A stretch of DNA of 64,000 nt, taken from the NCBI RefSeq assembly GCF_017094525.1, contig NZ_CP064788.1:1721030-1785029 (forward strand). The letters run 5' to 3'. Each line of letters opens with the position of its first letter. Within the stretch, counting starts at the first letter, position 1. This DNA is from Halapricum desulfuricans. GTDB taxonomy: Archaea; Halobacteriota; Halobacteria; Halobacteriales; Haloarculaceae. The position numbers and the translations under genes were made by a program. Positions 33,298 to 37,261 of the stretch are shown piece by piece. The notes beneath the pieces were generated by a model that had not been told where the DNA came from, did not search any database, and worked only from the letters and a program-made list of their open reading frames with translations.

Positions 33298-33515
33298 GCA
33301 CTCCGTCCATCGGGCGAGATTACAATAAACCGGGCCGACGCTCGTCTTCGATTAGCCCGATTTAATCGGATTTAACGGACACTCGAGGCCAGCCTGGTGC
33401 AGCTACTCTGGACAGCACTCTCTGAGCCGGAACGACAGAATTGCAGATCGGTGTCTTCGACGGGTTCGGACCGCGACGGGAGCGACAGTGCCACGCGCCG
33501 GTACGGAAGCGAAAG

Positions 33516-33523
33516 TTTATACA
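33516..33523 (+). promoter_or_regulatory. TATA-like promoter of valS
   Basis: GTTTATAC is the only clear TATA-like element upstream of valS. It predicts a start of transcription near 33545, about 90 bases before the valS ATG and only a few bases before the mini-ORF at 33548. A leader of this length is unusual for haloarchaea. Confidence 0.5.
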
Positions 33524-33547
33524 ATCGACATCGTAATCGTTCAGATA

Positions 33548-33577
33548 TGGCTCTGATGTCGTCGGTAGTACGATAGC
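33548..33577 (+). promoter_or_regulatory. Candidate leader peptide ORF (tandem Val codons) upstream of valS
   Basis: A nine-codon [12 protein letters not shown], starts a few bases after the predicted transcription start and ends with GTA GTA CGA TAG. Two consecutive GTA codons, rare in GC-rich haloarchaea, just before the stop of an ORF ahead of valyl-tRNA synthetase suggest ribosome-mediated sensing of charged tRNA-Val. No strong terminator hairpin is visible after it, so the mechanism would have to be translational. This is speculative. Confidence 0.3.
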
Positions 33578-33634
33578 CGCGCAGGCACGTTTTCACCGCC
33601 AGTCCGGCGACCAGCCACGACACCTCTCTTACCC

Positions 33635-36301
33635 ATGAGTGATCTTCCAGACACCTACGACCCGGACGACCGCGAGCAGCACTGGCGCCAGCAGTGGCAG
33701 GAGATGGACCTCTACAGCTACGACGCCGGGGCGGCCGATCCCGACACGGACTACGTGATCGACACGCCGCCGCCCTATCCGACGGGGAACCTCCACATCG
33801 GCAACGCGCTGGGGTGGTGTTACATGGACTTCGCCGCTCGCTATCACCGCCTGCAGGGCGAGGACGTACTCTTCCCGCAGGGCTGGGACTGTCACGGGCT
33901 CCCGACGGAAGTGAAAGTCGAAGAGAACGAGGGGATCCACCGGACGGACGTCCCGCGAGAGGAGTTCCGCCAGATGTGCATCGATCACACCGAGGAACAG
34001 ATCGACGCAATGAAAGACACGATGCACACGCTGGGGTTTTCCCAGGACTGGGACCAGGAGTTCCGAACGATGGACCCCGAGTACTGGGGGACCACCCAGG
34101 AGTCGTTCGTCGAGATGGCCGACGACGACCTCGTGTATCGGGACGAGCACCCGGTCAACTGGTGTCCGCGCTGCGAGACGGCCATCGCCGACGCAGAGGT
34201 CGAGACCGAGGAGGGCGTCGAGGGGACGCTCCACTACATCACCTTCCCGAGCGCCGACGGCGGCGACGACGTCGAGATCGCGACGACCCGTCCCGAACTG
34301 CTCTCCTCGTGTGTTGCGATGGCAGTCCACCCCGACGACGACCGCTACGCCGATCGGGTCGGCGACACCTTCGAGGTGCCGCTGTTCGGTCAGGAAGTCG
34401 AGATCATCGCCGACGAGGAGGCCGACCCCGAGTTCGGGACCGGCGCGGTGATGATCTGTACCTTCGGGGACAAACAGGACGTGACCTGGTGGGCCGAACA
34501 CGACCTGGATCTGCGGATGTCCTTCACCGAAGACGGCCACCTCAACGAGAAGGCCGGCGAGTACGAGGGGCTGACTATCGAGGAGGCTAAGGAGGTCATC
34601 GCAGAGGACCTCGACGAGGAAGGGTATCTCGAGGATACCGAACCAACGACGCAGAACGTCGGCCAGTGCTGGCGCTGTGACACGCCGATCGAGATCCTCA
34701 GCAAGGAGCAGTGGTTCGTCGAGGTCGATCAGGACGCGATCCTCGAGCGCGGTCGGGAGGTCGAGTGGATCCCCGAGCACATGTACGACCGCCTGGAGGA
34801 GTGGACGGAGGGCATGGAGTGGGACTGGGTCATCTCCCGCCAGCGCGTGTTCGCCACGCCCATCCCGGCGTGGTTCTGCGCGAACGACGAGTGCGATCAC
34901 ATCCACGTCGCCGATCCCGAGGAACTACCGGCCAAACCCACCGAGGAAGAGCCCGCAATCGAGGAGTGTCCCGAGTGTGGCGCCACCGAGTGGGTCGGCG
35001 AGACCGACGTGATGGACACGTGGATGGATTCCTCGATCACGCCGCTTTTCGTTCGCGACTGGCCCGACGAGGACTTCCACCCGACGACGCTGCGGCCGCA
35101 GGGCCACGACATCATCCGGACGTGGGCGTTTTACACGCTGTTGCGCACCGACGCGCTGGAGGACGAGATCCCGTGGGAGGAGATCCTCATCAACGGGATG
35201 GTCTTCGGCGACGACGGCAACAAGATGTCCAAATCGCAAGGCAACTTCGTCCAGCCCGAGGAAGTCGTCGAGGACCACTCCGCCGACGCCTTCCGGCAGG
35301 CGATGGCGCTGGCGGGCAAGCGCGGCGAGGACGTCCAGTTCCAGTGGAAGGAAGTCACCTCCGCCTCGCGGTTCAACACCAAGGTCTGGAACATCACGAA
35401 GTTCGCCGCTCAGCACCTCGACGCGGACCGCGAGCCGCTGGACAACCCGGCCTATCGTGACATCGACCGGTGGATCCTCTCGCGGGCCGCCGAGACCGCC
35501 GAGGATGTCGCCGAGTACATGGACGACTATCGCTTCGACGCGGCGCTTCGGGAATTGCGGGAGTTCGTCTGGCACGACCTGGCCGACGACTACCTCGAGC
35601 TCATCAAGGGCCGACTCTACGAGGGGCGACCCGGCGAGCGCGACGCCGCCCGCCAGGGGCTGTTCGTCGCGCTGACGGCCTCGCTGAAGATGCTCGCGCC
35701 CTTCGCGCCGTTCATCGCCGAGGAAGCCTACAACGCTTTGCCCAGCACGGAGGGTAGCGTCCACGCCGCCGAGTGGCCCGAGATCGACCTCCATCCCGAG
35801 GAGGTCGAGGACACGGACGCCGTCGAGCAGGCCGGCGAGATCATCGTCGACGTCGCCTCGACGATCCGGGGCTGGAAGTCCGACGCGGGGATGGCGCTCA
35901 ACGCCGAACTCGACAAGGTCGAAGTCTACCCCGACGACGGCCCCGAGGAGCGCGCGATCGACACCTACGACCTCAGCGAGGCGGTCAACGCGCCCGTGCT
36001 GATGCGCGAGGGCGTGCCCAGCGTCGAGCTCGTGCCCGTCGAGGTCGACCCCGATCACTCCGTCATCGGACCGGAGTTCCGCGATCAGGCCGGGCAGGTC
36101 GTCTCCGCGCTGGAGTCGATGGACCCGCAGGAAGTCAAAGACCAGATCGACCGCCACGCCGAAGTCGAGGTCGACCTCGGCGGCGAAGTCGCGGTCGTTC
36201 CCGGCGAGGCCGTCGACGTGATCGAGGAACGGCGCGCGGCCTCCGGCGAGGCGGTCGTCGTGCTCGAATCCGAGACGGCGACGATCCTGATCTACGAGTG
36301 A
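33635..36301 (+). CDS. valS: Valine--tRNA ligase
   Basis: This 888-residue class I aminoacyl-tRNA synthetase has the HIGH-type motif as NLHIGN near residue 53 and the KMSKS loop near residue 530 ([13 protein letters not shown]). The CP1 editing domain contains [17 protein letters not shown], and zinc-finger-like cysteine pairs are at WCPRC, CWRC and [22 protein letters not shown] distinguishes ValRS from IleRS. The end carries a C-terminal helical arm. It charges tRNA-Val; a tRNA-Val gene is at 15521. The stop codon shares its last base with palindrome P2 copy 2. Confidence 0.93.
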
Positions 36302-36733: not shown

Positions 36734-37261
36734 ATGGTCGACGACGACCCTCCTGACGTCGAGCGACAACTCGCGGAACTGACCCGGACGGTCGCACGGT
36801 TGCGCGACCAGCTCGAACGCGAGCGACGCCCGCTCGTGGCCCCGCGGCCGCCGCGGGCCGACGAACTCAGACAGTTCACCAGCGAAGTCGCGATCCCGGG
36901 CGCGATACTGCTTCTCGAGACGAACGTCCGTGCGCTGCGGCTCTTCCAGCGAACGATCCGGCTGGCCGACGGGGTCGACACACAGGACGGCGGCGACTCG
37001 GTCTCACAGCGGGCCGAGCGCGCCGGCTCGAAGGCCCTGTCGCGTCTCGAGAGCGCGCTCGAAGACGTGCAGTCGGCGCTCGACAGCCAGCCGCCGGACA
37101 GCGAGGCACGCGACCTGCTCGAAGACGCCCGGCGGCTCCAGTCCGAACTGGAAGACCGGCTCGACGAGACGGACGAACCGATTGAGACCGGGCCGTCGGT
37201 CGACGTCGAGTCCGAACTCGAGTCGATCAAGGATCAGGTCGAGAACGACGACGACCGATAG
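36734..37261 (+). CDS. Coiled-coil hypothetical protein
   Basis: This 175-residue soluble, strongly acidic protein opens with a coiled-coil helix (DVERQLAELTRTVARLRDQL). A helical segment around FTSEVAIPGAILLLETNVRA follows, then long charged helices to the end. It has no catalytic motif, signal peptide or clear membrane segment. The family is not recognised beyond being a haloarchaeal type. It is followed six bases later by a two-helix membrane protein gene, so the two probably form an operon. Confidence 0.65.
   Translation: MVDDDPPDVERQLAELTRTVARLRDQLERERRPLVAPRPPRADELRQFTSEVAIPGAILLLETNVRALRLFQRTIRLADGVDTQDGGDSVSQRAERAGSKALSRLESALEDVQSALDSQPPDSEARDLLEDARRLQSELEDRLDETDEPIETGPSVDVESELESIKDQVENDDDR

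Follow-up and report, generated by a model that had tools for sequence, protein, structure and literature searches.

The region upstream of valS in Halapricum desulfuricans appears to hold a leader-peptide sensor for charged tRNA-Val, a reading to which our sequence comparisons lead us to give a probability of roughly three in four. That it holds a conserved, apparently translated leader with rare codons for the enzyme's own amino acid is, judging from the relatives compared, hardly in doubt. Across those relatives, comparison of the sequences shows conservation of the promoter position, the ORF and its frame, the GTA codons, the stop and a U-tract.

The leader locus in Halapricum desulfuricans

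We analyzed a window of 64,000 nucleotides, meaning the whole stretch of DNA under study, from the 2.89 Mb single-contig genome of this archaeon. An earlier note on this DNA had described a TATA element, a nine-codon mini-ORF ending GTA-GTA-CGA-TAG and valS behind it, and all of these are present as described (Table 1). Counting from the first T of TTTATA, the leader ATG lies 31 nt on, which places the predicted transcription start on this ATG or no more than a few bases away from it; 58 bases separate the mini-ORF stop from the valS ATG. The note considered a 90-base leader unusual for haloarchaea. This holds for valS but not for the mini-ORF, which is itself predicted to be a leaderless message. 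In Haloferax volcanii 72% of transcripts are leaderless, as haloarchaeal transcripts mostly are (PMC4983044).

Table 1 Features of the valS leader locus, in coordinates of the window
Feature	Position	Strand	Remark
TATA element TTTATA	33516..33521	+	from sequence; GCGAAAG upstream at 33509-33515
Leader mini-ORF ATGGCTCTGATGTCGTCGGTAGTACGATAG	33547..33576	+	MALMSSVVR-stop (ATG GCT CTG ATG TCG TCG GTA GTA CGA TAG), predicted leaderless; relatives keep its start, frame and Val codons and a stop close by
Proposed stem P1, 5' arm GTCGTCGG	33558..33565	+	inside leader ORF; complementary to 33604-33611; extended by GGCT at 33549-33552
Tandem rare Val codons GTA-GTA	33565..33570	+	codons 7 and 8 of mini-ORF; in frame in 74/74 octamer-bearing relatives
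Octamer GTAGTACG	33565-33572	+	spans GTA-GTA and start of Arg codon
Arg codon CGA and stop TAG	33571..33576	+	Arg third base varies among relatives
U-tract TTTTC	33590..33594	+	candidate premature terminator or pause site; pyrimidine/U-tract recurs in relatives
Proposed stem P1, 3' arm CCGGCGAC	33604..33616	+	followed by AGCC (33613-33616); ~20 nt before valS ATG
valS, valyl-tRNA synthetase, 888 aa	33635..36301	+	PF00133 4e-95; PF08264 6.7e-37; TIGR00422 above cut-off

A genome-wide search for the combined TATA-ATG-octamer pattern returned this single place. The octamer alone was rejected as an informative marker, CGGTAGTACG being present 8 times in the same genome. The leader's Val codons are indeed rare, as had been claimed: in the collected valS genes, counted over their first ~220 codons, 36 of 1371 Val codons (~2.6%) are GTA, and the valS of the window has 1 GTA among its 67 Val codons. 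Among named relatives in the GTDB collection, Halapricum hydrolyticum has the closest ValRS (93% identity). Downstream of valS, the ORF at 36734-37261 is a member of the uncharacterised family DUF7547.

Conservation of the leader and a second design

Upstream regions were gathered with the ValRS sequence from genus, family, order and GTDB collections and anchored on the valS start; relatedness inflates all conservation counts given here. In the genus Halapricum the mini-ORF and its TATA element hardly vary, unlike the DNA above them; a lack of conservation in close relatives, which the note named as counting against its reading, is not what these genomes show. Outside the genus too, most sampled haloarchaeal families with this type of valS (type I) retain the mini-ORF and its GTA codons, in a common layout of a TATA element, an ATG ~29-34 nt on, 3-6 codons, GTA-GTA-CGN and a stop. 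We found the octamer GTAGTACG in 74 non-redundant upstream regions, all with an in-frame ATG 18, 15 or 9 nt before it; in six type I regions a second, out-of-frame ATG a few nucleotides upstream was scored in place of the leader ATG. The TATA element stands ~29-34 nt above the leader ATG in these regions, with the exception of L089, which has no recognised TATA word. Wherever scored, an in-frame stop ends 12-30 nt past the first GTA, and the spacing from this stop to valS ranges from 45 to 198 nt.

The earlier note had singled out the element before the mini-ORF as the only good TATA element, and the relatives agree: the leader of every non-redundant type I relative but one (72 of 73) has such an element ahead of its ATG, and the region 18-36 nt before the valS ATG holds one in none of the 73. 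For a transcription start close to the valS ATG, which the note named as speaking against its reading, the sequences thus appear to offer no promoter-like element.

The Arg codon after GTA-GTA was CGT in 56 type I relatives, CGA in 8, CGC in 6 and CGG in 2. The peptides read, among others, MALMSSVVR-stop and MGLMSSVVR-stop in Halapricum and Halorientalis, MDVVxSVVR.. in Salinibaculum and relatives, MRLTxSVVR.. in Halorussus, MSAxxSVVRGL-stop in Natronomonas, MSAMVSVVRL-stop in Haladaptatus, MRVxxxVVRV-stop in Halobacterium, with MRVGSTVVRV-stop at the valS locus of Halobacterium salinarum (L107), and MRWSxVVRV-stop in Halocatena and relatives, and residues outside the Val codons show no conservation between clades. 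Two loci have a broken octamer but keep GTA in frame, one codon in L044 (MGRPPAVR-stop) and both in L048 (MSRPAVVQAY-stop). Among the upstream regions compared, no leader was seen in Halorarius (L091, L130), L131, L049, marine group IV or Halorutilus-like genomes. Haloarcula-like octamer matches (MPTVVVR..) were rejected as leaders, as they look like part of another gene region. In a separate genus (L171-L175), a TATA-positioned MSVVRVxD-stop with GTAGTACG stands before a ~60-aa ORF that has no Pfam match, and an NAD-synthase-like ORF comes next in several loci.

The type I distance from ATG to GTA takes only the values 18, 15 and 9 nt, so the conservation of frame rests on few length changes, and a second type of ValRS provides the stronger test. 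At an E value of 1e-70, 276 of 391 sampled Halobacteriales genomes were without a type-I-like ValRS, and those examined carried a more divergent ValRS (type II). Upstream of it lies a TATA-positioned ORF with a GTA shortly before the stop, usually ending ..V-G-A-x-stop, and a hairpin, GGGGC-N6-GCCCC, directly behind this GTA end. The hairpin covaries, occurring as GGGGC/GCCCC, GGGGU/GCCCC, GGCCC/GGGCC and GGGCC/GGCCC. Because the hairpin search was anchored on GTAGG, the presence of GTA before the hairpin in 58 of 58 cases is by construction; the finding is that this anchor exists in frame, at that position, in so many genera. Most of the 55 non-redundant regions with a perfect hairpin had a TATA-positioned ATG, at distances to GTA of 27, 33, 36, 42, 45, 51, 54, 57, 60, 69, 72 and 84 nt, each divisible by three; the rest, for which the TATA word list used found no start, are unscored and are not counter-examples. 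Second ATGs, at 39 and 48 nt in L245 and L207, are also in phase, and L249 has an additional nearby ATG that is out of phase. The stop follows GTA mostly at 15 or 24 nt, and at 57 nt at most.

One large family has no leader by eye, its valS standing directly behind its own promoter-like element; together with the absence in Halorarius, this indicates that the leader is dispensable. One genus (L177-L179) has a type II ValRS gene with a type I style GTAGTACG leader (MEHAPVAVVR.., MEHPAAAVVR..). In another family (L251-L262, L290), the type II valS has a long leader with a conserved block, GTTTCGACGGATGTATTGT, and an apparent second uORF, ..RRRPxRAVRA-stop, whose TGA overlaps the valS ATG (ATGA) and adjoins a Shine-Dalgarno-like GGTGA.

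That the codons follow the amino acid of the enzyme is best supported by the sequences before trpS. The leader ORF there reads MASTSTDWRWRGPGVDSLAAVGRRA followed by a stop in the window's own genome (L362, at ~718.4 kb of the contig, outside the window) and MQSAPCGWRWRVRGADSFAAAA followed by a stop in another genome (G189). The pattern TGGCGCTGGCG..GGACAGT matched in 41 of 293 genomes, and trpS lay downstream on the same strand in 29 of the 30 pattern loci fetched; nearly all of the 29 have an ATG in frame with the pattern and 15-24 nt upstream of it, and L359 and L387, which lack one, may use GTG instead. In many families (L359-L388, with L362) the codons for Trp-Arg-Trp-Arg (WRWR) sit in the loop of a covarying stem; the Trp codons were themselves fixed by the search pattern, so that their conservation is no independent measurement. 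Paired cells make up 95.4% of this stem, with changes on both sides in 15 cells against 3.7 in shuffles, and the signal collapses when the stem is slid. An alternative pairing of the 2:3 kind was unsupported in the trpS leaders (median p 0.46). A further conserved motif, GCTCCCTCCGCTTTCTC, lies downstream of the WRWR stem. The strict frame of the type II Val leader and the Trp leader of trpS together argue for reading the codons as those of the cognate amino acid.

Among other synthetase genes in the Halapricum genus, ileS and one of the leuS paralogues have no upstream mini-ORF and clearly look leaderless (the other leuS was not clearly readable). In five genomes with Pfam-located synthetases, tyrS and aspS had no cognate mini-ORF where the start was readable, and this view gives no call for ser, pro, gly and his. 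Upstream of thrS in Halapricum (L312, L314) there is a weak candidate mini-ORF, (A/G)TG ATC ACC GAC CGT CAG GTC CGC GAT TTT.., which has one Thr codon and ends just before thrS.

Mechanism, output and rival explanations

We infer translation in vivo, sensing of charged tRNA and the choice of output from this conserved arrangement. Transcription would begin at the mini-ORF ATG, and a ribosome initiating on the leaderless ORF would meet GTA at codons 7 and 8. With ample Val-tRNA(UAC) it would finish at the stop a few codons on and leave, and the leader RNA would take its default state, in which valS is limited, either by RNA polymerase terminating at the U-tract ~20-50 nt downstream or by a stem of the leader codons with the region just before valS that hides the valS start. 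When charged tRNA-Val is scarce, the ribosome would stall on GTA, cover the 5' arm and keep close behind the polymerase, and valS would be made.

Of the 73 leaders, 60 carry a U-rich tract between their stop and valS; dinucleotide shuffling predicts 16.7, a comparison uncorrected for relatedness. Published reports describe intergenic termination sites of H. volcanii as T stretches ending at C (PMC7237163) and FttA as the factor thought to cause polarity in archaea (PMC12548453). Taken together, these observations favour premature termination as the output by a small margin. Unmasking of the valS start, through the proposed stem P1, is a somewhat less likely candidate, and some other output would be improbable. 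In most clades 4-16 nt separate the end of the P1 3' arm from the valS ATG, and L006 has an A-U pair where the window has G-U. Against shuffles P1 is statistically weak (per-sequence median p 0.17; Fisher over clade medians p 0.007), its covariation is limited, with only one pair changing on both sides in the Natronomonas-like set, and its register differs between Halapricum and Halorientalis. The fold of the window's leader RNA was not unusually stable (z 0.46). A pairing of GTACG with CGT(A)TTTT immediately after the Val codons was rejected, since alignments inspected by eye were inconsistent even within the genus.

The conserved frame and stop point to translation only, and would also fit a constitutive uORF that lowers or channels ribosomes to valS with no valine sensing; the second uORF that appears to overlap the valS start by ATGA also has the geometry of reinitiation. 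We nonetheless regard such a uORF as unlikely, because a generic one would not be expected to have an invariant rare GTA close to its stop in two leaders of different build, nor Trp codons in front of trpS. The type I spacing from stop to valS also exceeds the range of up to 30-40 nt over which efficient reinitiation in Haloferax is reported (PMC12548453). As it is GTA that is conserved, and not Val codons generally, a nucleotide motif is conceivable as well: GTAGTACG (or GTAGGGGC..GCCCC) could be a DNA or RNA regulator site, for example for ValRS on its own leader, with the ORF incidental. The third bases of GTA hardly vary, where GTC or GTG would also satisfy a need for the peptide, and the type II hairpin covaries. 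However, the in-frame spacing is strict at 12 different lengths with the stop always close behind, the third base of the Arg codon is free, the trpS codons likewise match their enzyme, and L044 and L048 retain in-frame GTA despite a broken octamer, all of which make this explanation still less probable than a constitutive uORF. Least plausible of all, with very little chance of being right, is an independent micropeptide gene followed by a valS that has a promoter to itself. Haloarchaea commonly encode small proteins (PMC4983044), but the relatives lack a TATA-like element before valS itself and the peptide outside the Val codons is unconserved between clades. The valine-sensing reading proposed by the earlier note is supported, at the level of sequence, by the conserved GTA frame, the type II leader and the trpS leader.

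Relation to known systems and significance

In bacteria, leader peptides that sense charged tRNA are a textbook mechanism. The haloarchaeal element shares with bacterial ribosome-mediated attenuators (trpL, hisL, the ilv leaders, pheST) a short ORF at the predicted transcript start, cognate codons and a close stop, followed by a U-tract and proposed RNA stems, all in front of a gene for the same amino acid. It differs in its archaeal transcription machinery, in a leaderless leader ORF without a Shine-Dalgarno site, in having one or two regulatory codons only, always the rare GTA, and in that neither alternative hairpins that exclude each other nor a hairpin terminator is established for it. 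Translational attenuators of the ermC type likewise have a stem, here a weakly supported one, that joins the leader ORF to the pre-start region and would be opened by a stalled ribosome, but the signal here would be uncharged tRNA and not an antibiotic. T-box riboswitches likewise stand before aminoacyl-tRNA synthetase genes and sense whether a specific tRNA is charged; they bind the tRNA without translation, whereas here a codon lies in an apparently translated ORF, and positions 33300-33800 gave no Rfam match, the T-box model included, at E values up to 5. Small ORFs in haloarchaeal leaders are also known from the uORFs of H. volcanii, but these lie in UTRs of 150-250 nt, were found by coding potential and encode 15-31 aa, and the excerpt of PMC4983044 reports no amino-acid-codon logic for them.

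Keyword searches of open-access papers, with subscription papers outside their scope, returned no report of an archaeal leader peptide controlling a synthetase, and we know of no established archaeal case of a charged-tRNA-sensing leader for an aminoacyl-tRNA synthetase. With somewhat less confidence than in the valS element itself, we consider it probable that haloarchaea, as a class, use leaderless leaders with cognate codons (GTA for valS, Trp for trpS) to switch synthetase genes by ribosome stalling, with an archaeal RNA polymerase, termination at U-tracts and two designs on two types of ValRS. If true, ribosome-mediated attenuation exists in the domain Archaea. A conserved system of this kind would show that neither leaderless initiation nor a eukaryote-like polymerase precludes attenuation, and would offer a genetically tractable test of archaeal transcription-translation coupling.
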